Source: Oscillospiraceae bacterium
GTDB lineage: Bacteria > Bacillota > Clostridia > Oscillospirales > Oscillospiraceae
Direction: 5' to 3'
DNA: 64,000 nt
Assembly (NCBI GenBank): GCA_017527825.1
Contig: JAFXPO010000019.1
Coordinates: forward strand, 62,001-126,000
This document shows positions 1 to 50,371 of the stretch, in pieces. The translations under genes and the position numbers were made by a program. Position 1 is the first letter of the stretch, and each line of letters starts with the position of its first letter. The notes under the pieces were generated by a model. It had not been told where the DNA came from and did no database searches. It saw only the letters and a list, made by a program, of their open reading frames with translations.

Positions 1-1127
1 ACGGCGAACACGCCGACAACGTCCGTGGCGGTGGTCACGACGGCAACGCCGCCCGTCAGTCGGGCAATCTCCCGCGAGAGCGCGTTCGCGCCGCCGAGGT
101 GTCCCGACGCGATGGGGACGGCAAACCGCCCGCCCTCGTCCACCGCGACTACGGCGGGATCGCTCACCTTGCTCAAAAGGTGCGGCGCGACAGCGCGCAC
201 GGCAATTCCCGCCGCGCCGACGTAGACAAGCGCCCGCCCCACGGGAAAACGCGACGCCGTCCAGTCATTCAGCGTCACACCGTCTCGCGTACACGAAACC
301 GTACCGCCAGTCTGGGCGCAGAGCGTATCCGCCAGCGCCCTGCCCCGTTCGGTGAACGCCAGATACGCGATCTCTCCGCCCGCGCTGCGCCGGCGATACG
401 CCGTGGAATAGGCGGGATCGTAAAGCTTGCTTTTCTCATAAGGCGCATCCAGAAACCGTCCGACGAGCACCAACGCGGTCTTGGTGATCCGCTCCGCCGC
501 GCCCGCTTTCGCCAGCGTCCCCACGGCGCATCGGACAACCTTCTCCTCCTGCCACGTCGCCTTGTAGACAATAGCCGCAGGGGTATCTGCGGAAAGCCCG
601 CCCGCCAGCAGCTCAGACTGCACGCCGTCCAGCAGCCCCGCCGAGAGAAAGATTGCCATGGACGCGCCGTGGCGCGCCAGGTCGCGCAGTCGTTCGCCCT
701 CCGGTACCGACGTGCGCCCCGCAAGGCGCGTGACAATCAGGCTCTGGCTGACGCCGGGGAGCGTGAACTCCGCGCCGAGCGCCGCCGACGCGCCAAAGAG
801 GCTCGATACGCCCGGCGTTACGTCCCAGCCGATGCCCTTTGCCGTGAGCGCGTCGATCTGTTCCCGGATTGCGCCATACAGCGCCGGGTCGCCGGTGTGC
901 AGGCGCACGACGCTCTTGCCCTCCGCCGCTTCCATCACGGCGAGGACTTCATCCAGCGTCATCGTCGCGCTGTTGTAGACGGCGCAGCCGTCCTTGCAGC
1001 GTGAGAGCAGCGCGGGATTCACAAGGCTGCCCGCGTAGATCACCACATCCGCCGTCTCCAGCAGCGTCGCGCCGCGCAGCGTGATGAGATCGGGCGCTCC
1101 CGGTCCCGCGCCCACAAAATGCACCAT
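1..1127 (-). CDS. CobM-CbiG fusion (precorrin-4 C11-methyltransferase / cobalt-precorrin-5A hydrolase), cut by window edge
   Basis: Translating the minus strand from the ATG at 1127 gives one open frame of at least 375 residues running off the left edge. Residues 1-248 are a CobM/CbiF-type tetrapyrrole methylase that adds the C11 methyl in cobalamin synthesis: GAGPGAPDLIT is at residues 5-15 and the domain closes with the family's KLYDPAYS-type tail. Without a stop or new start it continues from about residue 250 into a CbiG-type sequence (AYLAFTERG, then SGHLGGAN and VTTATD), the enzyme that opens the lactone of cobalt-precorrin-5A. These two steps are consecutive in the anaerobic pathway. 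The start lies 2 nt after the CbiD-fusion stop, so both are one operon. The join was checked codon by codon. The C-terminus is outside the window. Confidence 0.88.
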   Translation of the reverse strand, partial: MVHFVGAGPGAPDLITLRGATLLETADVVIYAGSLVNPALLSRCKDGCAVYNSATMTLDEVLAVMEAAEGKSVVRLHTGDPALYGAIREQIDALTAKGIGWDVTPGVSSLFGASAALGAEFTLPGVSQSLIVTRLAGRTSVPEGERLRDLARHGASMAIFLSAGLLDGVQSELLAGGLSADTPAAIVYKATWQEEKVVRCAVGTLAKAGAAERITKTALVLVGRFLDAPYEKSKLYDPAYSTAYRRRSAGGEIAYLAFTERGRALADTLCAQTGGTVSCTRDGVTLNDWTASRFPVGRALVYVGAAGIAVRAVAPHLLSKVSDPAVVAVDEGGRFAVPIASGHLGGANALSREIARLTGGVAVVTTATDVVGVFA

Positions 1128-1129
1128 GG

Positions 1130-3265
1130 TCACTTGCTCCAATCGTTCAAAATCGCTTCCGCTGTTTCCGTTTTCCCCAACAATCCATATTCGTTGGAGA
1201 ATATCACCGCGCCCACACGCAGCTTGTCTCCCGCGCGGCGGGTGAGCTGCCGCTGCATAGCGGACAACAGGCTGCTGAGCACCGGCGTTCGCAGCTTCGC
1301 TTCATCCAAAATGGCAAGGCAAGCGTCCGTGGTGGCGGCGTCCATCAGCTTGCGGCAGGTCACCGCGTCCGCACCGCACAGCGCCGCGTGGGCGGTGAAC
1401 AGCTCCGCGCGGCAGTCGGCGTACTTCGAGTGCGTGTTCATGATACCACCCGCAAGCTTCACCAGCTTGCCGATGTGCCCCACCAGCAGCGCCTCCCGAT
1501 AGCCCATGGTCGCCGTGAGATCGATGGCGTCACCCAGAAAGTTGGAATACTTTACGCTTGGGATGTTTTGCGGATTTAATCCGCTCGTCCGCAGGAAGTC
1601 CGCGCCATAATTGCCCGGCGTCAGGATGATGCGCTCCGCGCCAAGCGCGCGCTTTTGCCGCAGCTCCGCCTCGATGGTATCCACGACAGCCTGTTCGCTC
1701 ATCGGCTCTACGATGCCGGAGGTGCCGAGGATGGAGATTCCGCCCTCGATGCCCAGCATCGGGTTAAAGGTCTTGCTCGCCAGCGCCGCGCCGTCCGGCG
1801 CCGAAATAACGATCGACAGCCCGCCGTCGTACCCCGCCTCGGCGCAGGCAGCCTCCGCCGCCTCGGCAATCATGCGGCGCGGCACGGAGTTGATTGCCGC
1901 CGCGCCGACTCTCTGGTCAAGCCCCGGCTTCGTCACACGCCCCACGCCCTCGCCGCCGTCGACAGTGACGCCTGACGCTGTCCTGCGCACCGTGGCGCAG
2001 ATCAGGCAGCCGTCGGTTACGTCGGGGTCGTCCCCCGCATCCTTGCGCACAGCGGCAATCGCCGCGTCTCCGACGCGCTCACAACGCGCCAGCGGCGCCG
2101 ATACCGGCGTACCATTGGGGGTCACCAGCCGTGCGGTCTTGGGTACCTCGCCCAACAGCAGCAGCCGCGCCGCCGCGCCTGCCGCCAGCGCCGCGCAGGT
2201 GCCGGTGGTAATGCCCCGGCGCAGCAGCTTCTGTCCGCTGCGTGCATAGCGTCCGGCGAGCGCCGCGATTTCCGGGTAGCGGGCGAGGATGGCGCCATAG
2301 TTCTCCCGCCGGTGCGGGAAATTGCAGTCAATGCAGCTCTTGCTGCTCTTTTCCGTATAGTGAAAGCTTCCGCCGCACGCTTCACCCAGCGCGTAGAGCG
2401 GACAGTAGCAAAACAGGCAGTTGAAATCCTCCTCCGGCACTCCCGCGTGACAGGGGAACTTTTCGCACGCCCGGTTTTGGAAGAACGCGTACGCCTTGTC
2501 CGTCCTCTTTCGCCTTGTGAGGTCGGCATAAGCGCCGCGCGGGAGATCGTACAGGTTCTCCACGCCCACATCGCTCAGCACGTCCTCCGGTGCGCCGGCG
2601 CATTGCACCGCGCCGTCTTTGACACACATCACCGTGTCGGATACGCGACGCGCCAGCGCCAGTTCGTGCAGCGTCAGCACCACCGCAAGCCCCTGTTGAT
2701 GACTCAGCTCTTCCAAAATGTCCAGCAGCTCCAGCTGATAACGGACGTCGAGATATGCCGTCGGCTCGTCCAGCACCAACACCTCCGGCTCCTGACACAA
2801 TGCACGGGCGAGCATCACCCGTTGGCGCTGTCCGTCGCTGAGTGAGCCAAAATCCCGCGCGGCGATCCCTTCGATGCGAAGCCGCGCCAGCGACGCCTCC
2901 GTCACCGCTCGGTCATGGTCCGACAGGACGCCCAGCGTCCCCGTGTAGGGATAGCGTCCGAGACTCACCACGTCCCGCACCGTCAGCCGGTCGGTGCGAA
3001 GGTGCTCGGTGGTGAGGATGGAAAGCCGCCGCGCCAGCTCGTTGGGCGTCAGCGCGTCCATGGCGCTTTCGCCGAGGAACACCGTTCCCGCCAGCGGCGC
3101 GATCTGCCGCGAGATCGCCTTGAGCAGCGTGGATTTGCCCGCGCCGTTAGGACCCACCAGCGTGACGATCTCCCCCGCCCGGACGGCGAAGGTCACGTCA
3201 CGCACCACAGCGGAGCCGCCGTAGCCCGCGGATAAGTCGCGGGCATGCAGAAGTATCTCATTCAT
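1130..3265 (-). CDS. Three-domain fusion: FecE/BtuD-type ABC ATPase, Cys-rich small domain, CbiD methyltransferase
   Basis: A 711-residue protein starting at the ATG at 3265, which overlaps the permease stop in ATGA. Residues 1-250 are an importer ATPase with Walker A GPNGAGKST (38-46), signature LSDGQ (142-146), Walker B VLVLDEP (162-168) and H-loop His200. Residues 258-335 carry eight cysteines (267, 272, 283, 286, 288, 297, 311, 314), matching the Cys-rich small domain (PF04071) often found near cobalamin genes. Residues 348-711 are CbiD, cobalt-precorrin-5B C1-methyltransferase (RRGITTGTCAA start). No internal stop separates them. The longer frame up to 4252 only reads the permease gene out of frame. 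Coupling metal or corrinoid import to ring methylation is inferred. Confidence 0.88.
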   Translation of the reverse strand: MNEILLHARDLSAGYGGSAVVRDVTFAVRAGEIVTLVGPNGAGKSTLLKAISRQIAPLAGTVFLGESAMDALTPNELARRLSILTTEHLRTDRLTVRDVVSLGRYPYTGTLGVLSDHDRAVTEASLARLRIEGIAARDFGSLSDGQRQRVMLARALCQEPEVLVLDEPTAYLDVRYQLELLDILEELSHQQGLAVVLTLHELALARRVSDTVMCVKDGAVQCAGAPEDVLSDVGVENLYDLPRGAYADLTRRKRTDKAYAFFQNRACEKFPCHAGVPEEDFNCLFCYCPLYALGEACGGSFHYTEKSSKSCIDCNFPHRRENYGAILARYPEIAALAGRYARSGQKLLRRGITTGTCAALAAGAAARLLLLGEVPKTARLVTPNGTPVSAPLARCERVGDAAIAAVRKDAGDDPDVTDGCLICATVRRTASGVTVDGGEGVGRVTKPGLDQRVGAAAINSVPRRMIAEAAEAACAEAGYDGGLSIVISAPDGAALASKTFNPMLGIEGGISILGTSGIVEPMSEQAVVDTIEAELRQKRALGAERIILTPGNYGADFLRTSGLNPQNIPSVKYSNFLGDAIDLTATMGYREALLVGHIGKLVKLAGGIMNTHSKYADCRAELFTAHAALCGADAVTCRKLMDAATTDACLAILDEAKLRTPVLSSLLSAMQRQLTRRAGDKLRVGAVIFSNEYGLLGKTETAEAILNDWSK

Positions 3266-4242
3266 TGCCGCGCCTCCATTCTGTGCTTCAGAAGCATCCA
3301 TACCACCACCGGTGCGCCGAAAATCGCGGTCACCGAGCCGATGGCAAGCTCCGTCGGCGCGAAAACCGTCCGCGCGACCAGATCGCAGCCAAGGCAGAAC
3401 ACCGCTCCGCCCAGAAAGCAGGACGGCACCATGACGATGGGCTTCGCCGTACCCAGCAGCCGCCGCATGAGATGCGGGACCGCCACGCCCACGAAGGACA
3501 CCGGTCCGGCGAAGGCGGTCACGCAAGCGGAGAGTACGCTGGAGAGCAAAATCAATTGCCAACGGAACGAGGGCAGGGAAACGCCCATGTTCCGCGCGTA
3601 GCTTTCGCCCAGCTGGTAGGCGCTCATGGGCTTGGTAAGCAGGAAGCTCCACACCAGCCCCACGCCCACAATGGGCGCAATCAGGCGCAGGTTCCCCCAG
3701 CTGATGCCCGAAAAGCTGCCGAGGGACCACGCGCGCAGGTTCACAATGTTGGAATCGTCCGCGAACGTCACCACAAGATCGGTGACCGCGGAGCAGAGAT
3801 ACCCCACCATCACGCCGCAGACAACCAGCAGGGACATTTGCTTTACGCTGCCGGAAATCAGCAGGATCACGCCCATCACCAAAAGAGAGCCGGCGAACGC
3901 GGCGCTGTACAGTCCCGCCGAACCGACGGTGACGCCGCGGCTCAGCAGCAGCACCATGGTGAGCGCCACGGTCAGCTTCGCCCCCGATGAGACGCCGAGG
4001 ACAAACGGTCCCGCGATGGGGTTCGCGAAGAAGGTTTGCAGCAGAAAACCGGACACCGCCAACGCGCCGCCCAGCAGCGCCGCGGACAGCATCCGCCGCA
4101 GCCGCAGGTCGACGATCCGCGCGGCATAGTCCTCCCCGCCCCGCAGCGTCACACTGCCCACCGCGAGACTCAACACGCCGAGCGTCAGAAGCAAAAGGGT
4201 GAGCAGCGCAAAGGCAAGCGCGTTGCGCGTCTGTCGTTTCAC
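3262..4242 (-). CDS. BtuC/FecCD-family ABC transporter permease
   Basis: A 326-residue, very hydrophobic protein with the length and profile of FecCD-family permeases (usually about ten membrane helices). It has the family start RLRRMLSAALLGGALAVSGFL near residues 47-68, NPIAGPFVLGVSSGA near 73, and FVGVAVPHLMRR near 250, which in relatives contacts the ATPase. It should form the channel for a corrinoid, siderophore or haem-like metal chelate, working with the lipoprotein encoded upstream and the ATPase domain encoded downstream. Its stop overlaps the ATPase-CbiD start by 4 nt. The cobalamin riboswitch at the operon head makes a corrinoid or cobalt compound the likeliest cargo. Confidence 0.9.
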   Translation of the reverse strand: MKRQTRNALAFALLTLLLLTLGVLSLAVGSVTLRGGEDYAARIVDLRLRRMLSAALLGGALAVSGFLLQTFFANPIAGPFVLGVSSGAKLTVALTMVLLLSRGVTVGSAGLYSAAFAGSLLVMGVILLISGSVKQMSLLVVCGVMVGYLCSAVTDLVVTFADDSNIVNLRAWSLGSFSGISWGNLRLIAPIVGVGLVWSFLLTKPMSAYQLGESYARNMGVSLPSFRWQLILLSSVLSACVTAFAGPVSFVGVAVPHLMRRLLGTAKPIVMVPSCFLGGAVFCLGCDLVARTVFAPTELAIGSVTAIFGAPVVVWMLLKHRMEARQ

Positions 4243-4271: not shown

Positions 4272-5375
4272 TTAACGCAAACGCCGCAGGTAGGTCAACT
4301 GTTCCTCCCCCGTTCCGTTCAGAACGGCGTGAAAATCCGCAATCATGCCGCCCACGGCGGAGGTCTCCTGAAAGAGATTTTGCTCCGTCACCCAGACGTT
4401 TCCGGTCTGCACCGCCTTGAAATCCGCGAACATGTCGTTCTCCGCGAGCAGCTGCGCAAGGGAATCCATCGGGTAAATCGTACTGTTGTAGATCAGCACA
4501 TCCGCGTCCCGCGCCCCGGCGTAAAACGCCTCGAACTGCATGTTGATGGTGGAGAGATTGTTGTCCTCTCCCTCCAGCTCCGTCGGAACGTACAGACCGC
4601 CCGCGAGGGCAATCATCCTGGAAACGTAGTCCCCCGGACGGCGCACGTTGACGTAGCCGTTGGGACTTACATAGAACACCGTCGCGGTCTTGCCCGTATT
4701 CTCCGCGGAAAGGATGTCCGCCAGCGCGGCGGTCTGTGCGTCGAAGTACTCCTCCGCCTCTGCCGCCTTGCCCACCAGCAATCCGTAGAGCTTGATCCAT
4801 TCCAGCCGTCCCAGCGGATGAGATTCATAGCTGGAACGCTCGACCATCGTGGGGATACCCAGCGCCTCCAACTGTTCCCGCGTGGCGGGGCTGTGGAGGA
4901 TCATCGTGTTTTCCACGGCGAAGGCGCAGCCCTCCGCGAGCAGCAGCTCATAGTCCGGCGCACGATACTTGCCCACATAGAGAATATCGCCCGCGTCCAT
5001 GGCATCCGCCACTTCGGGAATGCTCCAATCCGCCGCGGCTGTGCCGGTGAAGCGCACCGCGCCCAGCGCGCCAAGCTTTTGAAACGGATCCATCGCCGAC
5101 GAGGACGCGAGATAAATGTGATCCAGCGGCGTATGCACCACCGCCGCGTCCGCGACTTCGGGCGTCCCCTCACCTTCGGGAACGAGAAGATAGCGCTCCT
5201 CCCCGGCAATCGTTACCAGCGCCGCGTCGCCGTAGTAGTCCACGGTGAACTGCTCGGCGTAGGCAAGCTCCATGCTGCCGGTGGGCTGCGCCGCGCTTGG
5301 GAACGGCTCCGCCGTATGCTGTGCGCAAGCCGTCAGCAGCAGCGCAAGCAGCGCAAGGATCGCAGTTCGCTTCAC
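4272..5375 (-). CDS. ABC transporter substrate-binding lipoprotein, BtuF/FhuD-like
   Basis: 367 residues starting with a lipoprotein signal (lipobox LTAC, lipidated Cys17), so it should sit on the outer face of the membrane. The body is a type III binding protein (PF01497 class): a first lobe with DHIYLASSSAMDPF and SIPEVADAMDAGDILYVG, a long linking helix with GRLEWIKLYGLLVGK, and a second lobe with the YVSPNGYVNVRRPGDYVSRMI stretch. Such proteins deliver cobalamin, haem or siderophores to BtuC/FecCD permeases, and the permease gene follows 29 nt downstream. The start overlaps the stop of the preceding lipoprotein gene by 4 nt (ATGA). The ligand cannot be read from sequence; operon context favours a corrinoid or cobalt chelate. 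Confidence 0.85.
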   Translation of the reverse strand: MKRTAILALLALLLTACAQHTAEPFPSAAQPTGSMELAYAEQFTVDYYGDAALVTIAGEERYLLVPEGEGTPEVADAAVVHTPLDHIYLASSSAMDPFQKLGALGAVRFTGTAAADWSIPEVADAMDAGDILYVGKYRAPDYELLLAEGCAFAVENTMILHSPATREQLEALGIPTMVERSSYESHPLGRLEWIKLYGLLVGKAAEAEEYFDAQTAALADILSAENTGKTATVFYVSPNGYVNVRRPGDYVSRMIALAGGLYVPTELEGEDNNLSTINMQFEAFYAGARDADVLIYNSTIYPMDSLAQLLAENDMFADFKAVQTGNVWVTEQNLFQETSAVGGMIADFHAVLNGTGEEQLTYLRRLR

Positions 5376-6274
5376 GGCTGAACCGCCGCGATAGACGCGA
5401 AATCAAAAGTCAAAGTGTATTCGATTTCATAAGGCTGGCTCATGGCGGTGGTATCGGCGATCACCCGCATCGGGCGGTCAAACGCTCCGACCGGAATGAC
5501 GAAGGTGGAGCGTCCGCCGATGATCTCGGCGTCATAGCGCTCGCCGTCCACCAGCATATAGTCGTAGTTCGCGCTGCTCCAGACAATCGTCGCCGCCGCC
5601 GCGCCGTCAACAACGGTCAATGCCGCCGGCGACTGTATGCTCGCCTTGCCGGAGCCGCCCGCGAGCGTCACATCCACGGTGTATGCGCCGTCGGCAAGGG
5701 TCTCCGCCGTCGTTACACTCTCAAACGCCTCCAGAGGCAGGGAATCGCCGCGGAACACCAGCGTTCGGTCATACCACAGCTCCTTGCTGCGGCTCCACGC
5801 CGCGCAGGGAACCTCCTGATCGAGCGCCGTAAGCGGAAGAACGAACGTACCGGTGCCATTTTCCACCACGCTCGTGATGTAATCTGCCGCGTCCGCGGCA
5901 GCGGCGTCCTCAGCGGTGCCGGGGTAGAGATAGCCATAGCTGTCGCTGCTCATAATGAGCTTTGCCGTCATCGCGTCGCCGCCGACGGTCAGCTCGCAGT
6001 CTGTGATCTTAAACATGGGCGAGCTGCTGTCTACACTGATGTTGTAAACGCCGTCAACAAGCTCGGCGGCGTGGATCGGCGTCATGCCCTCGGTTCCCAC
6101 GTCCTCCACCGCCGTCATCTGGGACGCGTCCGCGACGGCGGAAGTGTTGCTTGGTTCCTCCGCCTGGGTCCCTTCCGCCGAAACGCTCTCCCGCGCCGTC
6201 TGCGCGGCGCAGCCCGTCAGCAGGCACAGCGTCAGCAACGCCGCAAGGGTCTGCTTTTTCAGCTTACTGTCCAT
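5372..6274 (-). CDS. Two-repeat lipoprotein of unknown function in the cobalt/corrinoid operon
   Basis: 300 residues from the ATG at 6274; an upstream extension would sit inside cbiK. The signal ends in lipobox LTGC with Cys22. Two related domains follow, at about residues 70-170 and 185-295, each opening with DGVYN/TV, continuing with a serine-rich S.YGYLY or NYDYMLVDG strand, and containing FV(L/I)P.(T/G)A. The second ends with TAMSQPYEIEYTLTF. The pattern suggests tandem beta-sandwich modules that could hold a metal, haem or corrinoid outside the cell, but no family was recognised with certainty; a NEAT-like fold is only a guess. It overlaps cbiK by 11 nt and the BtuF-like gene by 4 nt, so the three exported proteins are probably made together. 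Confidence 0.7.
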   Translation of the reverse strand: MDSKLKKQTLAALLTLCLLTGCAAQTARESVSAEGTQAEEPSNTSAVADASQMTAVEDVGTEGMTPIHAAELVDGVYNISVDSSSPMFKITDCELTVGGDAMTAKLIMSSDSYGYLYPGTAEDAAAADAADYITSVVENGTGTFVLPLTALDQEVPCAAWSRSKELWYDRTLVFRGDSLPLEAFESVTTAETLADGAYTVDVTLAGGSGKASIQSPAALTVVDGAAAATIVWSSANYDYMLVDGERYDAEIIGGRSTFVIPVGAFDRPMRVIADTTAMSQPYEIEYTLTFDFASIAAVQP

Positions 6275-7265
6275 CGATTGTCTCCTGCGCGTGGGCGGTG
6301 TACAGGCTCTGGATGCTCTCCAGGCTGCCGAGTCCCTCCAGCACGCACTCAACCTCGTAGCCAGCCGCTTCGAAGACGCTCTTCCAGCTGTCCTCATCAT
6401 CGCCCGCCATGTCGTTGTTGGCGTGGTCGCCCGCAACCACCATCAGCGGGCGCAGCACGACGCGCTTGTAGCTGCCCATCTGCACAGCGGTGAGCACGTC
6501 CTCCACGGAGGGGAACGCCTCAACGGTGCCGATGAAATAATTGTCCATCCCTTTTGCGTCCAGCACGCTCTGCATCTGCTCATAGACGCCGTTGGAGTCC
6601 GCCTCGGTGCCGTGACCCATAAACACGATCGCGGTCTCGCCATCGTCATACTGCGCCGTGGCGGCGACAATGGCATCCGCCACCGCGTCAAAATCCGCCT
6701 CTGTCTGAAGCAGCGGTGCGGCAATCTTGATCTTCTCAAAGGAATCGACATAGGTCGCGACCTCGGAGATCACGTCGTTGTACTCAAAGCCGTCCATCAG
6801 GTGCGTCGGCACCACCAGCAGCTCCTTCACGCCGTTATTGACCGCCCGCTCCAGCGCCTCGGTCACGTTGTCGATGACCTCGCCGTCACGGCGCGCCACA
6901 TGGTCAATGATGATCTGGCTGGTGAACGCGCGGCGGACGCTCCAATCGGGGAACGCCTCCGCCAGCGCGCGCTCAATCGCGCCGATGGTAAGGCGGCGGC
7001 TGTCATTGAAGCTGGTGCCGAAGCTCACCACCAGCAGTTCCTTCTCGCCGATCTCGTCCTGATTGCGGGGATCGTCCAGCGACGCGTCGCCGGTGGTATA
7101 GTCCTCCTCGTCGTCCGTTTCTAGCGCCGCGGATTCGTCCTGCTTTGTCTCCTCCTGCGCCGCGGGCGTCTCCGTCGGGGTCTCGGTTGTCGTGCTGCCC
7201 GCGCAGCCGGTCAGAAGACCGCATACCATCGTCAGCGCCATCAGGCACACCATCCATTTTTTCAT
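6264..7265 (-). CDS. cbiK: Sirohydrochlorin cobaltochelatase CbiK, predicted surface lipoprotein
   Basis: 333 residues from the ATG at 7265, preceded by an AAGGAAG ribosome site; the upstream Met at 7322 lies in the riboswitch terminator. The enzyme inserts cobalt into sirohydrochlorin in anaerobic cobalamin synthesis. Visible CbiK motifs are ELLVVSFGTSFNDSRR, PTHLMDGFEYNDV, FMGHGTEADSN and VVAGDHANNDMAGDD, keeping the histidines used as metal ligands and catalytic residues in the family. Unusually it begins with a lipoprotein signal (lipobox LTGC, Cys21) and an acidic linker of about 60 residues, so the enzyme should act outside the membrane. Periplasmic CbiK forms are known in Desulfovibrio. 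It is the first gene behind the cobalamin riboswitch. Confidence 0.9.
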   Translation of the reverse strand: MKKWMVCLMALTMVCGLLTGCAGSTTTETPTETPAAQEETKQDESAALETDDEEDYTTGDASLDDPRNQDEIGEKELLVVSFGTSFNDSRRLTIGAIERALAEAFPDWSVRRAFTSQIIIDHVARRDGEVIDNVTEALERAVNNGVKELLVVPTHLMDGFEYNDVISEVATYVDSFEKIKIAAPLLQTEADFDAVADAIVAATAQYDDGETAIVFMGHGTEADSNGVYEQMQSVLDAKGMDNYFIGTVEAFPSVEDVLTAVQMGSYKRVVLRPLMVVAGDHANNDMAGDDEDSWKSVFEAAGYEVECVLEGLGSLESIQSLYTAHAQETIDGQ

Positions 7266-7283: not shown

Positions 7284-7312
7284 AAAAAAAATCCGTCTGC
7301 CGAAGCAGACGG
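7284..7312 (-). terminator. Intrinsic terminator of the cobalamin riboswitch
   Basis: A perfect stem CCGTCTGC/GCAGACGG with a short loop followed by eight T on the minus strand. It ends about 19 nt before the cbiK start and just ahead of its ribosome site, so it is well placed as the expression platform of the aptamer upstream. Confidence 0.88.
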
Positions 7313-7379
7313 ACACACGCACAGGAAAGCCCAGCCGATTCCTCGGCTCAGCTTACACACGCGGTTTCCGGTTCCGGCA

Positions 7380-7507
7380 GAAACGCAGACAGCCCTCAGG
7401 TATTCTGACTCATCCGCTTGCGCGGCATCACAGTGACCGACTCGCGGGGCTTCGCACCCCATTCCCCCTGCCGCCCGAAGCGGCGAGGACTGTCTTCATT
7501 CGGTTGA
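7380..7507 (-). promoter_or_regulatory. Cobalamin (B12) riboswitch aptamer
   Basis: Read on the minus strand, the leader of the cbiK operon contains the B12-box-like GAGTCAGAATACCTG, preceded by a GGTCACTGTGATG segment matching the usual GCCACTG element and by GGGGAATGGGGTGCGAAGCCCC, corresponding to the GGGAA and conserved hairpin of the class. A terminator follows at 7284-7312. Cobalamin binding is expected to switch off the six genes downstream. The exact ends of the aptamer are approximate. Confidence 0.9.
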
Positions 7508-7547: not shown

Positions 7548-8414
7548 TCACGCCGGATTAACATGGATCATGATGTGTTTGACCTGCGGGAACGCCATCT
7601 CCACGTCGTTGTGCACCCGCTCTGCGATGGCGTGCGCGTCCACAAGCGGAAGCTGACCGTCCACGGAGATTTCCAGCTCGATATAGATGCGGTTGCCGAA
7701 CTCGCGGGTACGCAGAAGGTCGATGTGCTCCACGCCCTCGTGACCCATGACGCAGCCGCGGATGGCGCGTTCCGTCGCCTCATCGCAGCTGTGATCCACC
7801 ATCTTGTCCACCGCGTCACGGAAAATGTCGATCGCCGCCTTACCGATGAACACGCAGATCACCACGCTGGAGAGCGGGTCGAGGATCGGATACCCCAGCC
7901 GTGCCCCGGCAATGCCCAGCAGTGCGCCCACGGAGGACAGCGCGTCGCTGCGGTGATGCCACGCGTCCGCCATCAGCGCCTCGGAGTCCAGTGACCTCGC
8001 ATAGTGGCGCGTGTACCAGAACATACCCTCCTTGACCGCGATGGACAGCACCGCCGCAAAGAGCGCCGCGATACCCGGCACCGGCAGGTCTTCCCGATGC
8101 ACGATCTTCTCCACGCCGCTCCAGCCAACCAGCAGACCGGTAGCCATCAGAATCGCGGAGAGCACGATGGCGGCGACGCATTCCATACGCTCATGCCCGT
8201 AGGGGTGCTCCCGGTCAGACGCCTTTTCTGACGCCTTGACCCCGATCATCACGATGATCGTGCTCACCACGTCCGACGCGGAGTGGATGGCGTCGGACAC
8301 CATGGCGCCGGAGCGGGCGAGTACGCCCGAAAGCAGCTTGACGACGCTCAGCAGCACATTCGCGGCAATGCTCCGCCGTGAGACGCGCATGGTGATCTGT
8401 GTGCGGTTTTCCAT
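7548..8414 (-). CDS. Cation diffusion facilitator, probable Co2+/Ni2+ exporter
   Basis: 288 residues starting at the ATG at 8414 behind GGAGGG; an extension to 8438 would run into the riboswitch terminator. It is a proton-coupled divalent-metal exporter of the CDF family: membrane segments across roughly residues 10-200, the paired metal-site motifs SDAIHSASD (near residue 40) and DAWHHRSDA (near 150), and a cytoplasmic C-terminal domain ending in HIMIHVNPA with the metal-sensing histidines of the family. The gene sits behind a NiCo riboswitch and beside the cobalamin operon, so cobalt and nickel are the likely substrates rather than zinc or iron. It is not co-transcribed with cbiK, which has its own promoter downstream. 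Confidence 0.92.
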   Translation of the reverse strand: MENRTQITMRVSRRSIAANVLLSVVKLLSGVLARSGAMVSDAIHSASDVVSTIIVMIGVKASEKASDREHPYGHERMECVAAIVLSAILMATGLLVGWSGVEKIVHREDLPVPGIAALFAAVLSIAVKEGMFWYTRHYARSLDSEALMADAWHHRSDALSSVGALLGIAGARLGYPILDPLSSVVICVFIGKAAIDIFRDAVDKMVDHSCDEATERAIRGCVMGHEGVEHIDLLRTREFGNRIYIELEISVDGQLPLVDAHAIAERVHNDVEMAFPQVKHIMIHVNPA

Positions 8415-8425
8415 GTGATCCCTCC

Positions 8426-8466
8426 AAAAACAAAACATCCGCGGAACACACTGTCCCGTAGATGTT
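8426..8466 (-). terminator. Terminator of the NiCo riboswitch expression platform
   Basis: Minus strand ACATC..CGG pairs with CCG..GATGT, followed by TTTTGTTTTT. The 5' half of this stem uses the last part of the aptamer (the GGGACAGT region), so aptamer folding and termination should exclude each other, the known arrangement for NiCo riboswitches. Confidence 0.8.
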
Positions 8467-8517
8467 GTCTACTGTCACACAAGTGACCCGGCTCCCAAGG
8501 GCCTGCTCCGTTGTTGT
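8440..8517 (-). promoter_or_regulatory. NiCo riboswitch (Co2+/Ni2+ sensing)
   Basis: On the minus strand the leader reads GGAGCAGGC, then GGGAGCCGGG, a hairpin-forming GTCACTTGTGTGAC, and finally CGGGACAGTG. The GAGCAGGC, CCGGG and GGGACAGT blocks in this order are the conserved core of NiCo RNAs, which bind cobalt or nickel cooperatively and turn on czcD-type CDF exporters. Here it sits directly before such an exporter and overlaps a terminator. The outer helix P1 is irregular, so boundaries are approximate. Confidence 0.82.
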
Positions 8518-8523
8518 AGTGTC

Positions 8524-11262: not shown

Positions 11263-11582
11263 GAATATGTATTAGTGTAAGTGTCACTATTTCCCTTTTT
11301 GGAGCATATAACAGTTTGCAGGCTCCGGGGCGGCGCTTCGGCGCCGGGGGATCAGGGCGCTATGACCGAACCGGCGTGAGCCGGGTCGTGAAATAGAAAT
11401 CAACGGAAAGGATGTGGTAGCAAGGCAAAAGCGTGGCAGTTCAGCGGGGCGCACCCGAACGTCGCCGGTATTGTTTGCGCATGCCGGCGATTGAGGGGGA
11501 ATGCGCCGGGGCTTCATCAGAAGCTACGTAGACTGATGATGTGCGCTGAGCGCGCGAGGTAGGATAGTTGCAACGCACAACC

Positions 11583-11657
11583 GTCGAAAGGCGGTGCCGC
11601 AAAGCTACAGGGGCTAACTTGCCGGGTGCAAACCGGCGACATGCCAGCCAGCCGCCA
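11583..11657 (+). promoter_or_regulatory. Candidate c-di-GMP-I (GEMM-I) riboswitch aptamer A
   Basis: GTCGAAAGGCGG is followed by GCCGCAAAGCTACAGGGGCTAA, a hairpin with GCCGG/CCGGC, and CATGCCAGCCAGCCGCC. This parallels the GEMM-I layout (GACGCAAAGCCAC.GGG.CTAA, second hairpin, then ATG..GCC.GG.TGCC). It is less canonical than the downstream aptamer. A third, more degenerate relative, also with an ACGCAAAGC core and later AGGAGGCTAAAGCC, spans about 11686-11790. Confidence 0.55.
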
Positions 11658-11828
11658 GATATGGCATCTTCATTCAGCAAGGTCGTCGAAAGGCGGCTCA
11701 CGCAAAGCCGCACGTTGGGAAACCGCGTGCACAGGAGGCTAAAGCCGATGCGAAGTCCAGATATTGGGTACGCGCGGAGGCCAGGCTCGTCCGGCTGCCG
11801 GAGAGACATTATCTGCTTTAGCAAACCC

Positions 11829-11905
11829 GCTGAAAAGCGGCGACGCAAAGCCAGAGGCTACGGCGCGTTATGCGCTATGCCCGTTCGGCCGCCGGGGATC
11901 TTTGC
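11829..11905 (+). promoter_or_regulatory. c-di-GMP-I (GEMM-I) riboswitch aptamer C, proximal to the surface gene
   Basis: GCTGAAAAGCGGC, then GACGCAAAGCCAGAGGCTA, a hairpin GGCGCG..TGCGC, TATGCCCGTTCGG and CCGCCGGGG. The order and core bases match the GEMM-I consensus, and the same module stands before the peptide gene at 49968. No terminator with a T-run follows, so control may act on translation or through the GC-rich stems at 11970-12005. Boundaries are approximate. Confidence 0.72.
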
Positions 11906-12043: not shown

Positions 12044-15000
12044 GTGAAAGCTAAGCTTATAAGAGCATTATCTCTCCTCTTATCTCTCATTATGATCATG
12101 GGCTGCATGAGCCTGCCGGCTTTTGCAGCGGACAAGACTGTCTATGTAAAGATCGCGTTGCAGGATGAATCCGATTTTACTATTTTGACAGTCACCGGCG
12201 ATGAAGACTTTGACTTCACGGAAGAATATTATTTGAATGCTTCTGCTATTCAACCCGAAGATCAAGGCGACGGAGTATATTCTGCTGCTCTTACGATAAA
12301 CAAGTCCTACTCGTTTATGGTAGACAGCAATCCACTACTCGCTACCGGAACCAAAAAAGATTTAGTCATCGTTGTACCCGAAAATTGCGATTGTGTTACG
12401 CTCAAGCAGGATAGTGAGGGCGGCAATTGGTCTGCTGATTGGAGCGTCTACGGCGAAGAAGAGTCGGAGACTCCCGCCGTCCAAGGCTTCTATCAGGACA
12501 CCGAGAACCCAAACCTCTACCACATCACCAGTCTTGAAGGTCTGAAGCAGTTCCGCGACAGCGTGAACAATGGCACCAGCTACAGTGGTGAGACCATTCA
12601 GCTTGACGAAGACATTGACCTGAGCGGCGAGAACTGGACGCCGATCGGCAGGAATGGCGTTACCTTCAATGGCACGTTCAACGGTAACAGTCATAAGATC
12701 GAGAACCTGACAATCAATGACGATTCGTTGAGTGAAGCCGGTCTGTTCGGTCAAACGATGGGTGCCACAATCCAAAATATTACGATTGAGAATGTGACTC
12801 TGGCCGCCCAATCTAAGGTTGGTGCACTTGTTGGTTTTAGCAACGGTGCCAACGCCACGTTCACCAACTGTTCTGTAACCGGTACGATTCAAATCGCCGG
12901 AACAAGCAGTGTTGGCGGGCTTATCGGCAATATTTCGGAGGGCAAATTTACCCTGACCGGCTGCTCTGTGGACGGAACCAATGCGGAAAACCGTTCGGTT
13001 ACCGGCACGAACATGGTTGGCGGTTTGGTTGGCAACACCCTGTACGCCGGTACCATAACCAATTGCTCAGTCAGCAACGTAACTGTCAGCAGTCCGAAGA
13101 AGCTTGGTGGTCTGGTCGGTCAGATTTTGTACAGCAAGTATCCGAATGCTACCGATTATAATGCGCCGCTGATTATTTCCGACGTATCGGTAAGTGATGT
13201 TACTGTTGACTGCACTGCAACCGCTGATACTGATGATTACGTTCAGGTAGGTGGACTTATTGGCATTCTGTATCGTAGCGACGGTGTTTCATCCCTCAAT
13301 CAGGTCAGTATTGCCGGTACTGTGTCGGACGTGACGGTGAATGCTATTGAGAGCAGTAAGAAAGGCGCCGCTGTCGCCGGTCTTGCTACTGGCGGTTACC
13401 GAAAGCTCAGCGCTGCGGGCTCCGCCGCGGAGCTCACCGAGGACGGTGTGGAGTTCGACGTCAACTATTCAGGCACAAACACGATCAACGGCAACACGAA
13501 CTACACTAGTTATAAGGGCATCTACAATCCTGCGCCCGTAACCTACGTCGCGCAGATTGGCAGCACCAAGTACGTGACGCTGGCGGAAGCCTTCGAAGCG
13601 GCTGAATCCGGCGACACCATCACGCTGCTGGCGGACGTAAAGTTGACGGGCACAGCAGAAGCGGATCGACTTTGCGTTACGAAGTCCATCACTCTCGATA
13701 TGGACGGAAAGACAATCAGCTTCGACGAATCCGTAACTGACGCCGGAAGCAACTTTGCTGTGCTTTGGGTGCTCAATGGCGCAACGCTGACATTGACCGG
13801 CAACGGCACGATTGACGGAAGTAGCGCTGAGGCGTACGGCATCAACCTCGGCTATATCCAAAAAAAGTCTGGCGAAACAGTCACCCGTGAAGAACAGACT
13901 GGCAATCTGGTAGTCGAGAGCGGAACGATCAAGGGTGACGTTTCCGCGATCCAGATTCAGGTTGGTACCGCAGAGATCAGCGGCGGCTATTTTGAGGTCA
14001 AGCCTTATAATGACGGAAAGGACCCTTATCGTTACACGCTGAACTGCATCGACGCATCGTTCAAGGCAGGGAAAGCGGTTTATTCTGTCACCGGCGGCAG
14101 CTTCTATAAGTTTGATCCGTCGGACAGTGCTTCGGAGAATCCGGCGGGTGTCTTCACCGCCAACGGCTACGCCGCCTACAAGACCGGCGACAAGTGGATA
14201 GTCACCGAAGATAACAAGGTTGCCGAAATTGATGGTGTCTTCTACGGCACGCTGCCGGAAGCCATCGAAGCGGCTGAATCCGGCGCGACCATCACGCTGC
14301 TGAAGGACATTGACCTCGGTTCCGCAAGCCTTACCATTGGCAAGGCTCTGACGCTCACCAGCGACGGCGTCGCGAAGACCATCGCCAGCAGCGCGGCGCA
14401 GGCGATCCTGCTGACCGGCAACGGCAATGTGACGCTGGAAAAAGTGAACGTTACCGCGACCAAGGGCCATGGCATCCAGGCGGGTAACGATTCCGCGGCG
14501 TACAGCGGCCAGCTGACGCTCGACGGCGCGACTCTGACGGTTGCCAAGCGCGGCATCCGCGTGTATAAGGAAGACACCGGCTTTGGTATTGCACTGGAGG
14601 ATTCGACGATCCAGAGCAATGTGGCTGACCCCAAGAAGGCCTACACCACCGGCAACGACGCGATGGGTCTGAGCCTTGGCACAACGGACGACAAAGGTTA
14701 CACCGTTACGATCACGGATTCGACGATTCAGGGCTTCTCTTACTGCATCAACAGCGTAATGAGCGGCAGCAATCTGAACGTCACCATGACCGGCGGCGCA
14801 ACCTACGGCCGCGCCGCACTGAACGTCTGGGGCAGCAACAACACGTTTACCATGACGGATGTTGACATCCACGGTCTCAACATCCAGACCGGTCCGACTG
14901 AGGGGTTTGCCTGCATCGTGGACAACACGTCGGCAAGGAATAACACATACGAGATCAATCAGTGCAAGTTCTATGCGTTTCTGAGTGAAGCCGCAAACAA

Positions 15001-17314
15001 CACAGAGACCTCGACGGCATCTGAGCAAATGTTTGATCTCCGTGGCTATGGCTCTAAGATGTTCATCAACGGCAATGTGACTGCATACGTCGCCAAGGTT
15101 GGCAATACAGACGCGGACGCATCCAATGGTCGCTTTGGTCTGATGTACAGCGAGGGCTGCTTGATGTACAACCTGGTTGTTCTGGATCGCTCTGCGATGA
15201 ATGATTTGGCCGCTGAGATTGCTGCGTTGTCCGATGATGTCGATAAGATTCAGTATGGCGAAGCGCAATACGATCTTACCCGGCTGACCTACACAACCGA
15301 AGTGCTCTATTGTTGGTACACGGGAAATCAGATGAAGGGCGTGTATTGCGACTTCAACGTTCCGTTTACGAGCGCAGCATATAAGTTGTGTGACGGCGGG
15401 CTTATTCGGTTGCAGAAGAACGTTGAGCTCACCCAAAACCTGACCGCAAACGTGAGTTTTAGTCTCATCCTCGACACCTACAGCATCACCGCCGGCAATT
15501 ATCGCATTCAGATTGCTGCCGGTGCGACCGTTACCACCGACAAGCAGGCGACCGGATTGTTCTCCGTGCCGGAGGGTTACGAGCTGGTTGAGACTAAGAT
15601 CCCAAGCGGATATACCTATCGCGCTTTTGTCCAGCAGTCCACGTCCAATGACACGACCAAGCAGGAACAGGTGAACGAAAACACCACGAAGACCACCACC
15701 ACGAACTTCACGATGAGCGCCGGCGCTGATGCTGATGATCCCAGCTTCGCCATCAAGACCGAGGTCACAACGACGACGACTGGTGAGAACGCGTCCAGCA
15801 ACACCACAACCACGTTCCGCCCGGTCGAGGTTGCCACTTCTGCCGCGGCTACCGCGCCTGAGGCTGTCAAGTCGGATACCTCCAATGCTGCTATAAGTGT
15901 TGTTGCGGCTATAACTGCTTACAACGACACTAAGGCGACCAGCGAATCCGCCACCTTCAAGGCAGCGCTGAGTGATAGCGACAACGCGACTCCGGCGAAG
16001 GTTCTCAAGACCACTGCCGCGGCGAACGCTATCGCCAAGGCTGCTGCGAACGTGAGTGCCGCAGAAATCAGCGAGGCAAAGGTCATCCTCAAGACCGAGT
16101 TGAGGTCCTTTGAAACGACTGACAACAGCAATAATGTTAAAAAGGTCGTTTACGACATCAAGCCGGTCGCGCAGCTGTACAACGCGAATGGCGAAAGTCT
16201 TGGCGAAGCCGTTAAACTGCTCAACGACGATATCGCGGAAGGCGAGACCTTCACCTTCGAGATTCCGGTACCGAGCGCCATGACCGCTAGCGACATCAAG
16301 GTAAGCCACAAGGGTGAATCTGGCTATTCGACGGAAGTCGGCACCTACACGCCGGCTGGCGAAGTGGGTACTGTCCGCTACATCACCGTCACGGTTGACC
16401 ACTTTAGCGAGTTCGAGCTGGAGGAAGATACCCTTGTACTCGGAACTGCAAAGGTCACGGCTAACCTTACCCTTGAAGACGAAATCAGAATCAACTTCAG
16501 CGTCTCGCAGCTGAGCAAAGATGCGTCGAACTACTATGTCACATATCAGTTTGCTGGTGAGACCGAGCCGCATATCGCATACTTTAATAACACCACTATG
16601 GTTTCCAGCGGCATCTACAAGTTTACTGTAGCTGACTGTGCAGCGAAGCAGATGACCGACAAAGTGAATTTCAAAGTGTACTACGATGGAGTCATGGTGT
16701 ACAACTTTGACTATTCTATCCGGGATTACTGCGTCAGAATGATTAAGAATAGCAATGATCAGAAGCTGAAAGCCCTTTGCCGTGCCATTCTGGACTACGG
16801 TGCGTCCGCGCAGACTTACTTCGGTTATCGTACGGATGCCCTTGCGAACGCCGACGGCTACGGAAAATATGACAGCAATGCGATACCTGCCGTCGACAAC
16901 ACCAACACCAACAACGTGATTGCTCTGGATCTTCCTAGTCTGGGTAACGGCATCAGAAGCGTGAACGCAAACTTGACGCTGGTTTCCAAAACTGAGATGA
17001 ACTTCATGTTGAACGTGAATGATACTCAGAGTATTTCCGATTGCACTGTTACATCCAGCGATCAACAAGAAACAGTTAGCACCAGCATGACCACATCGGG
17101 TAACATTGTAACAATCAAGGTCAACGGTATTGCTGCAAAGAATTTGAATCACGCTTACACGCTGACATTCCAGTGCGGTGATCAGGAAAACAGCATTACC
17201 TATTCCCCGCTCACCTATGCGTACCGCAGCCAGAATAAGGCAGCAGGTCTCGGTTATCTTAGCAAGGCGTTGTACCAGTATTGGTTCACGGCTCAGCAGT
17301 ATTTTAGCAAGTAG
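12044..17314 (+). CDS. Large secreted GLUG-type surface protein
   Basis: 1756 residues beginning at a GTG 10-15 nt after AAAGAAAGGAA. A signal peptide with cleavage after PAFA (residue 28) directs export. About residues 170-480 hold GLUG-type beta-helix units (NWTPIGRNG, GTFNGN, GLFGQT, VGALVGFS, VGGLIGN, VGGLVGN). Residues 500-1000 hold two further blocks that begin with (T/F)YGTLPEAIEAAESG-type repeats and form a right-handed beta-helix. A Thr/Asn-rich linker lies near 1200, and the last 300 residues are a globular tail with CRAILDYGASAQTYFGY, seen in other clostridial surface proteins. There is no LPxTG or SLH anchor. Its GC content is visibly lower than that of its neighbours, hinting at a different origin. 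The long antisense frame inside it is a shadow. Confidence 0.9.
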   Translation: MKAKLIRALSLLLSLIMIMGCMSLPAFAADKTVYVKIALQDESDFTILTVTGDEDFDFTEEYYLNASAIQPEDQGDGVYSAALTINKSYSFMVDSNPLLATGTKKDLVIVVPENCDCVTLKQDSEGGNWSADWSVYGEEESETPAVQGFYQDTENPNLYHITSLEGLKQFRDSVNNGTSYSGETIQLDEDIDLSGENWTPIGRNGVTFNGTFNGNSHKIENLTINDDSLSEAGLFGQTMGATIQNITIENVTLAAQSKVGALVGFSNGANATFTNCSVTGTIQIAGTSSVGGLIGNISEGKFTLTGCSVDGTNAENRSVTGTNMVGGLVGNTLYAGTITNCSVSNVTVSSPKKLGGLVGQILYSKYPNATDYNAPLIISDVSVSDVTVDCTATADTDDYVQVGGLIGILYRSDGVSSLNQVSIAGTVSDVTVNAIESSKKGAAVAGLATGGYRKLSAAGSAAELTEDGVEFDVNYSGTNTINGNTNYTSYKGIYNPAPVTYVAQIGSTKYVTLAEAFEAAESGDTITLLADVKLTGTAEADRLCVTKSITLDMDGKTISFDESVTDAGSNFAVLWVLNGATLTLTGNGTIDGSSAEAYGINLGYIQKKSGETVTREEQTGNLVVESGTIKGDVSAIQIQVGTAEISGGYFEVKPYNDGKDPYRYTLNCIDASFKAGKAVYSVTGGSFYKFDPSDSASENPAGVFTANGYAAYKTGDKWIVTEDNKVAEIDGVFYGTLPEAIEAAESGATITLLKDIDLGSASLTIGKALTLTSDGVAKTIASSAAQAILLTGNGNVTLEKVNVTATKGHGIQAGNDSAAYSGQLTLDGATLTVAKRGIRVYKEDTGFGIALEDSTIQSNVADPKKAYTTGNDAMGLSLGTTDDKGYTVTITDSTIQGFSYCINSVMSGSNLNVTMTGGATYGRAALNVWGSNNTFTMTDVDIHGLNIQTGPTEGFACIVDNTSARNNTYEINQCKFYAFLSEAANNTETSTASEQMFDLRGYGSKMFINGNVTAYVAKVGNTDADASNGRFGLMYSEGCLMYNLVVLDRSAMNDLAAEIAALSDDVDKIQYGEAQYDLTRLTYTTEVLYCWYTGNQMKGVYCDFNVPFTSAAYKLCDGGLIRLQKNVELTQNLTANVSFSLILDTYSITAGNYRIQIAAGATVTTDKQATGLFSVPEGYELVETKIPSGYTYRAFVQQSTSNDTTKQEQVNENTTKTTTTNFTMSAGADADDPSFAIKTEVTTTTTGENASSNTTTTFRPVEVATSAAATAPEAVKSDTSNAAISVVAAITAYNDTKATSESATFKAALSDSDNATPAKVLKTTAAANAIAKAAANVSAAEISEAKVILKTELRSFETTDNSNNVKKVVYDIKPVAQLYNANGESLGEAVKLLNDDIAEGETFTFEIPVPSAMTASDIKVSHKGESGYSTEVGTYTPAGEVGTVRYITVTVDHFSEFELEEDTLVLGTAKVTANLTLEDEIRINFSVSQLSKDASNYYVTYQFAGETEPHIAYFNNTTMVSSGIYKFTVADCAAKQMTDKVNFKVYYDGVMVYNFDYSIRDYCVRMIKNSNDQKLKALCRAILDYGASAQTYFGYRTDALANADGYGKYDSNAIPAVDNTNTNNVIALDLPSLGNGIRSVNANLTLVSKTEMNFMLNVNDTQSISDCTVTSSDQQETVSTSMTTSGNIVTIKVNGIAAKNLNHAYTLTFQCGDQENSITYSPLTYAYRSQNKAAGLGYLSKALYQYWFTAQQYFSK

Positions 17315-49968: not shown

Positions 49969-50371
49969 GTTTTTACTTCCTTTCTTTGCAATTCCATTGC
50001 AACAATCAAAATGGCATCTTTGCTTTTCAACTCTTACAAGGCGGAGGCAAAGAACCCCGGCAACCGAACGGGCATAGCGCATAAGCGCCTTAGCCTCCTG
50101 CCTTTGCGTCACCGGGTTTCCCATCGGTTTTGCGGTAGTCTGATAAAGTATCTCGCGCGCGAACAGCGCGCGCCGCCCATCGTCAACCTACGTAGACACC
50201 GACGATTCGCCGCGCCCGGCACATTCTCCCGCTTATCGCCGGTCTGCGCAACCAATCCCGGCGAAATGCGGGTGCGCCCCGCTGTACTGCCTCGCTTTTG
50301 CCTGAGTATCACGTCCTTTCCCGCGATTTCTATTTCACGACCCGGCTCCCGCCGGTTCGGTCATAGCCGCC
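49969..50371 (-). ncRNA. Long structured leader RNA, copy 2
   Basis: On the minus strand from 50371 the sequence GCTATGACCGAACCGGCG..AGCCGGGTCGTGAAATAGAAATC begins a block of about 160 nt that closely matches copy 1 (11357-11516), including GGCAAAAGCG.GGCAGT, CAGCGGGGCGCACCCG and the TCGCCGG/CCGGCGA stem. A GC-rich hairpin GCGCGCG..CGCGCGC follows, then one c-di-GMP-I-like aptamer and TTGCAAAGAAAGGAA. It is shorter than copy 1 because it has one aptamer instead of two or three. There is no promoter reading into it in the present orientation. Confidence 0.72.
50041..50130 (-). promoter_or_regulatory. c-di-GMP-I (GEMM-I) riboswitch aptamer before the secreted peptide
   Basis: Minus strand GGGAAACCCGG, GTGACGCAAAGGCAGGAGGCTA, hairpin GGCGC..GCGC, TATGCCCGTTCGG and TTGCCGGGG. 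The order and key bases (GACGCAAAG, GG.CTA, CGGTTGCC) follow the GEMM-I consensus closely, and the module is nearly identical to 11829-11905. The output, terminator or translational, is not evident. Confidence 0.76.

Follow-up and report, generated by a model that had tools for sequence, protein, structure and literature searches.

Why would a bacterium that keeps the genes for the corrin ring of B12 carry its cobaltochelatase as a lipoprotein, and what would the two lipoproteins encoded beside it do there? The question is raised by an operon in a 64,000-nucleotide stretch of an Oscillospiraceae genome (contig JAFXPO010000019.1; hereafter the window), for which the first-pass annotation had proposed that cobalt is chelated into a tetrapyrrole outside the membrane and the product then imported. 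The features of the operon, in its reading direction, are as follows.

7378..7505 (-), cobalamin riboswitch aptamer (RF00174), divergent; 31.2 bits, E 2.6e-6
about 7284..7313 (-), putative attenuator, a terminator-like hairpin with U-run between the riboswitch and cbiK; called from sequence and fold, leader z -2.9
6264..7265 (-), CbiK, predicted exported lipoprotein cobaltochelatase; PF06180 E 4.8e-80, lipobox LTGC; MKKWMVCLMALTMVCGLLTGC
5372..6274 (-), repeat lipoprotein with two predicted NEAT domains; lipobox LTGC, model pLDDT 86 with NEAT fold; MDSKLKKQTLAALLTLCLLTGC
5720..6070 (-), NEAT domain 1, on the CbiK side; model pLDDT 94, 3sik Z 11.4, IsdX2-NEAT5 alignment
5381..5710 (-), NEAT domain 2, on the binding-protein side, with an (H/Y)xxxY motif; 3sik Z 12.7, homology to domain 1
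4272..5375 (-), BtuF/FecB-like substrate-binding lipoprotein; PF01497 E 2.7e-26, lipobox LTAC; MKRTAILALLALLLTAC
3262..4242 (-), BtuC-like FecCD permease; PF01032 E 6e-71, best NCBIfam model BtuC
1130..3265 (-), fusion of a BtuD-like ABC ATPase, a Cys-rich zf-like domain (PF04071) and CbiD; profile matches
1..1127 (-), CbiF fused to CbiG; the reading continues past the window edge

The coordinates and lipoboxes of the three overlapping lipoprotein genes are as the first-pass annotation had described them, with overlaps of 11 bp between CbiK and the repeat lipoprotein and of 4 bp between the latter and the BtuF-like protein, and profile matches at 1130..3265 bear out the fusion of the ABC ATPase to CbiD. 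A BtuFCD-type set of binding protein, FecCD permease and ATPase is complete in one operon, which runs on past the window edge through CbiG, CbiH, CbiJ, CbiE/T, CbiA, CobT, CobU and CbiB. Within the BtuD-CbiD fusion the PF04071 domain lies at about 2261-2491 (-), between ATPase and CbiD; we considered it as a conserved part of the system and dropped it, since a quick test matched it in no more than 5 of 83 ATPases. Immediately ahead of the cobalt operon and on the same strand, a NiCo riboswitch (8449-8520 (-), 48 bits) precedes a cation diffusion facilitator (7548-8414 (-)) that is likely to serve in cobalt/nickel efflux. Elsewhere in the window, tandem c-di-GMP-I riboswitches (11564-11659 and 11810-11896 (+)) stand before a secreted-looking protein of 1756 aa (12044-17314), and a third is found at 50056-50144 (-).

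The three lipoprotein genes had also been placed under one cobalamin riboswitch, and this too holds. The window's aptamer scores just below the Rfam cut-off of 31.5 bits, with the E-value given above applying to that stretch; because RF00174 is found upstream of the operon at 79-109 bits in 14 of 15 related loci tested, the borderline match is, by this comparison, a divergent copy and not a chance hit.

Is CbiK really outside the membrane, and would it work there? The window protein scores 269 bits against PF06180 (cut-off 26.2) and 232 bits against the NCBIfam CbiK equivalog, which is under that model's cut-off of 400. Scored by a simple pattern, lipoboxes recur across related loci in about 90 of 99 CbiKs, 84 of 94 substrate-binding proteins (SBPs) and 75 of 81 NEAT proteins versus 3 of 85 BtuC and 1 of 96 BtuD proteins from the same loci, and because of this difference those of the trio are, on pattern evidence, not chance occurrences. 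Plain signal-peptide-like leaders replace the lipoboxes of all three proteins in locus L110 and of CbiK and the binding protein in L119, while in L097 the binding protein, and perhaps CbiK too, has such a leader and no lipobox. A leadered CbiK and a NEAT gene occur together in 96 loci and are both missing from 39; the mismatches are two leader-only loci, which represent one contig-end gene, and nine without a leader, which are truncated, plain-signal or missed starts. In genomes that lack the NEAT protein, such CbiKs as occur have no detectable leader, and since these partnerless CbiKs of the same order start right at the catalytic domain, we rejected the idea that the exported form is a false start. 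In the phylogenetic tree a branch with support 100/99 separates the exported CbiKs from the leaderless CbiKs of the same order; the Salmonella, Desulfovibrio and FetB enzymes fall outside this clade, on long branches that leave their placement unsure. Moreover, across 97 CbiKs the residues equivalent to Salmonella H145, H207 and E89 are present in all and E175 in 96, and the window CbiK keeps all four, so that judged by conservation the active site is intact and cobalt insertion is predicted. Taken together, the leader and lipobox patterns of the window and its relatives support the proposed location of CbiK outside the membrane. CbiX was found in no carrier, nor did the carriers yield any class II cobaltochelatase besides the exported CbiK, with the exception of one genome (G252) that also has a cytoplasmic CbiK. 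The known substrate of CbiK is sirohydrochlorin (PMC7689651).

The repeat lipoprotein had been guessed to be a NEAT-type tetrapyrrole holder, and the structure prediction that the first-pass annotation called for supports this. An AlphaFold2 model built with 14 relatives (pLDDT 86) and a separate prediction of domain 1 from 41 relatives (pLDDT 94) were compared with known folds; the top matches for both repeats were nearly all NEAT domains, with IsdX1 (3sik) aligning to domain 1 over 103 residues (Z 11.4, rmsd 2.4) and to domain 2 over 106 (Z 12.7, rmsd 2.3). By hhalign, domain 1 and domain 2 are themselves homologues (probability 98.5%, E 2.9e-15). By sequence profile the relationship is faint, domain 2 of the window reaching 17.2 bits against Pfam NEAT (PF05031; cut-off 32.8) and domain 1 giving no match, with weak matches in 23 of 40 NEAT2 and 24 of 41 NEAT1 relatives (best 1e-5). 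Pfam matches of the lipoprotein to CsgH, EccB and others were discarded as single-member or weak, NEAT being matched in 13 of 14 members. A search of NCBIfam returned no name for the repeat or the binding lipoprotein, and the BtuF-like protein has no PDB sequence relative at E 0.01. The ligand site appears altered in both domains: aligned with IsdX2-NEAT5, NEAT1 has Lys at the usual axial-Tyr position (KxxxY), and in NEAT2 relatives an invariant Tyr is preceded, at a distance of four residues, by His (70%) or Tyr (28%), the window's own NEAT2 reading YEIEY. Some known NEAT domains do not bind haem, and departure from YxxxY therefore does not exclude membership of the family; the altered axial residues, Lys in NEAT1 and in NEAT2 most often His, lead us to conclude from the models that the lipoprotein resembles NEAT proteins but has a modified ligand site.

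The repeat lipoprotein is present in 20 of 295 genomes of the order, and genes for relatives turn up in at least 563 candidate stretches of named genomes, most of them in records of Oscillospiraceae and Lachnospiraceae. Gene order (CbiK, NEAT1-NEAT2, SBP, permease, ATPase) is near-invariant in the two sets of 19 and 80 loci. Natural fusions join CbiK to NEAT1 (L041, L043), CbiK to both NEAT domains (L064, L065, L085, L119) and both NEAT domains to BtuF (L125, L136), and where the NEAT domains are split into single genes NEAT1 adjoins CbiK and NEAT2 adjoins the SBP. The fusions, the positions of the split genes and the conserved order therefore support a putative physical chain CbiK-NEAT1-NEAT2-SBP.

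What, then, would such a chain carry? The genome from which the window comes (100% complete) gives no match above cut-off for HemB, HemC or CobA and retains CbiD, CbiF, CbiG, CbiH, CbiJ, CbiE-T and CbiA, which, as far as searches for these early genes go, is the pattern of a tetrapyrrole precursor salvager. Shelton et al. (PMC6461909) describe corrin-ring genes without early tetrapyrrole genes as the predicted salvager phenotype, mostly in Firmicutes. All three early genes are absent from 16 of 20 carriers, this genome included, with the corrin-ring genes kept, and in a second sample HemB is absent from 37 of 50 (e.g. R. flavefaciens 007c and [C.] clostridioforme AGR2157); HemB is thus retained by a minority (4/20 and 13/50). 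Of the CbiD-positive genomes in the order, 15 of 19 with the NEAT lipoprotein lack HemB, versus 9 of 40 without it (Fisher p 5.5e-5, a test that ignores shared ancestry). CbiL shows a similar imbalance, being absent from 10 of 19 CbiD-positive carriers versus 4 of 40 non-carriers (p 7e-4, again ignoring shared ancestry); the ten, which keep corrin-ring genes with CbiL below cut-off, are the window's own genome and G053, G083, G109, G220, G170, G201, G227, G251 and G272. Since about half of the carriers lack CbiL, the ring taken up may already bear its C20 methyl group, or CbiL may have been replaced, and judging from gene content the CbiL-less carriers may reflect either independent losses or a substitute enzyme. 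Three further genomes (G019, G069, G114) have CbiD, with HemB, CbiK, CbiL and the NEAT lipoprotein all undetected.

Considering that the corrin-ring genes are kept while HemB, HemC and CobA are mostly lost, we favour salvage of a ring precursor, and put at roughly 0.6 the probability that the operon encodes a cobalamin-repressed system in which an exogenous tetrapyrrole at the level of sirohydrochlorin receives its metal at the surface and is then passed along and taken up to feed a truncated B12 pathway. On this proposal, which draws on sequence and models, the tetrapyrrole would reach the cell surface and there, outside the membrane, receive Co(II) from lipoprotein CbiK. As a cobalt-tetrapyrrole it would be passed to NEAT1, NEAT2 and the BtuF-like lipoprotein in turn; the FecCD permease would take it inside with the help of the ABC ATPase, and the corrin ring would be finished in the cytoplasm by CbiD and the remaining Cbi enzymes. 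The earlier idea of chelation outside followed by import thus gains from the loss of early genes, from CbiK being the sole class II cobaltochelatase found and from the links of CbiK to NEAT1 and of NEAT2 to the binding protein; the sirohydrochlorin-level ligand is its tentative part, with CbiL absent in about half of the carriers.

The absence of CbiL is also what speaks for a different cargo. The imported ligand could be a later, C20-methylated intermediate ((cobalt-)factor III or precorrin-3), with CbiK metallating it or being partly a relic, and the loss of CbiL from the window's genome and nine other CbiD-positive carriers, together with the continued presence of CbiH, CbiF, CbiG and CbiD where examined, is what this would predict. 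CbiL is still present in the remaining half of the carriers, however, and CbiK is known to act on sirohydrochlorin (PMC7689651), and we regard this reading as unlikely. A slightly smaller chance is left to haem or iron acquisition of the Iht/Isd type, in which haem is captured by the NEAT domains and has its metal removed or exchanged by the CbiK-like lipoprotein, and the ABC transporter imports haem, porphyrin or iron; a scheme of this sort has been proposed for Porphyromonas IhtB/FetB. NEAT folds represented in the PDB bind haem, the second PDB relative of CbiK is annotated as 'heme-binding protein FetB' (9b86, E 3.8e-42), metal exchange by FetB has been reported (PMC13402209), and Iht follows the same logic of a CbiK-like lipoprotein with binding protein, permease and ATPase (PMC10913741). 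Yet the operon appears to be controlled by cobalamin rather than iron, the riboswitch being present at 14 of the 15 loci examined for it; the loci lie inside cobalamin clusters, with the ATPase fused to CbiD; the axial Tyr has given way to Lys in NEAT1 and mostly to His in NEAT2; and FetB falls outside the group of exported CbiKs, although the branches are long and its place unsure.

Ordinary cobalamin or cobinamide uptake by BtuFCD, with exported CbiK as a cobalt catcher only, would fit a permease nearest to BtuC and a cobalamin riboswitch, but would leave unexplained why corrin-ring genes are kept despite the loss of HemB, HemC and CobA, why the chelatase site is intact with no other class II chelatase present, and why CbiK-NEAT fusions exist; we consider it highly improbable.

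A cobaltochelatase outside the membrane is not new, because a periplasmic CbiK in Desulfovibrio and the Iht system of Porphyromonas precede it. Desulfovibrio vulgaris has the periplasmic cobaltochelatase CbiK(P) (PMC4063343), and in Desulfovibrio cbiK-cbiL and btuCDF lie under one B12 element (PMC545781). The window CbiK matches the CbiK(P) structure (PDB 2xvx) at E 1.5e-36; unlike it, CbiK(P) has no NEAT partner named and sits outside the exported clade on a long branch. We know of no indication that D. vulgaris is a precursor salvager. In Porphyromonas gingivalis, Iht (IhtA-E) similarly combines a CbiK-homologous lipoprotein with binding protein, permease and ATPase (PMC10913741), and the host is without precorrin-2 synthesis (PMC6461909). 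However, Iht is presented as a route for haem/iron, includes a TonB receptor and has no NEAT protein named; no outer-membrane receptor was noticed in reading the operons here. IhtB and FetB, which we take to be one protein, fall outside the exported-CbiK clade, with an unsure place in the tree. The Isd and Shp-Hts systems pass haem along a surface NEAT relay to a binding lipoprotein and an ABC transporter with FecCD permease. They share the NEAT fold with our system, but their ligand is haem, they have no chelatase partner and are under iron control, whereas here NEAT1 does not keep the axial Tyr and NEAT2 mostly has His. The predicted tetrapyrrole precursor salvagers share the same genomic phenotype, and no uptake machinery is named for them in the accessible text of Shelton et al. 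(PMC6461909). Literature searches that paired NEAT with cobalamin or sirohydrochlorin gave no title or abstract describing the combination of CbiK, NEAT and importer. What appears new, within the literature searched, is an external cobaltochelatase joined to a NEAT relay in B12 makers without their own precursors.

The operon is thus a candidate for the missing uptake machinery of bacteria whose B12 synthesis is predicted to depend on tetrapyrrole precursors, and with carriers among named-strain genomes, A. butyriciproducens being another named carrier, it is directly testable. Porphyromonas Iht deserves a second look, its host likewise being without precorrin-2 synthesis. NEAT domains gain a possible non-haem ligand, and the implied route is a trade in B12 precursors in gut and rumen. 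To our knowledge factor III is not recognised as a nutrient. The chances seem to us evenly balanced that many gut and rumen Bacillota would carry out the cobalt insertion of B12 synthesis at the cell surface, on a scavenged ring, with NEAT domains turned from haem to cobalt-isobacteriochlorin, and that the CbiL-less lineages would trade factor III.
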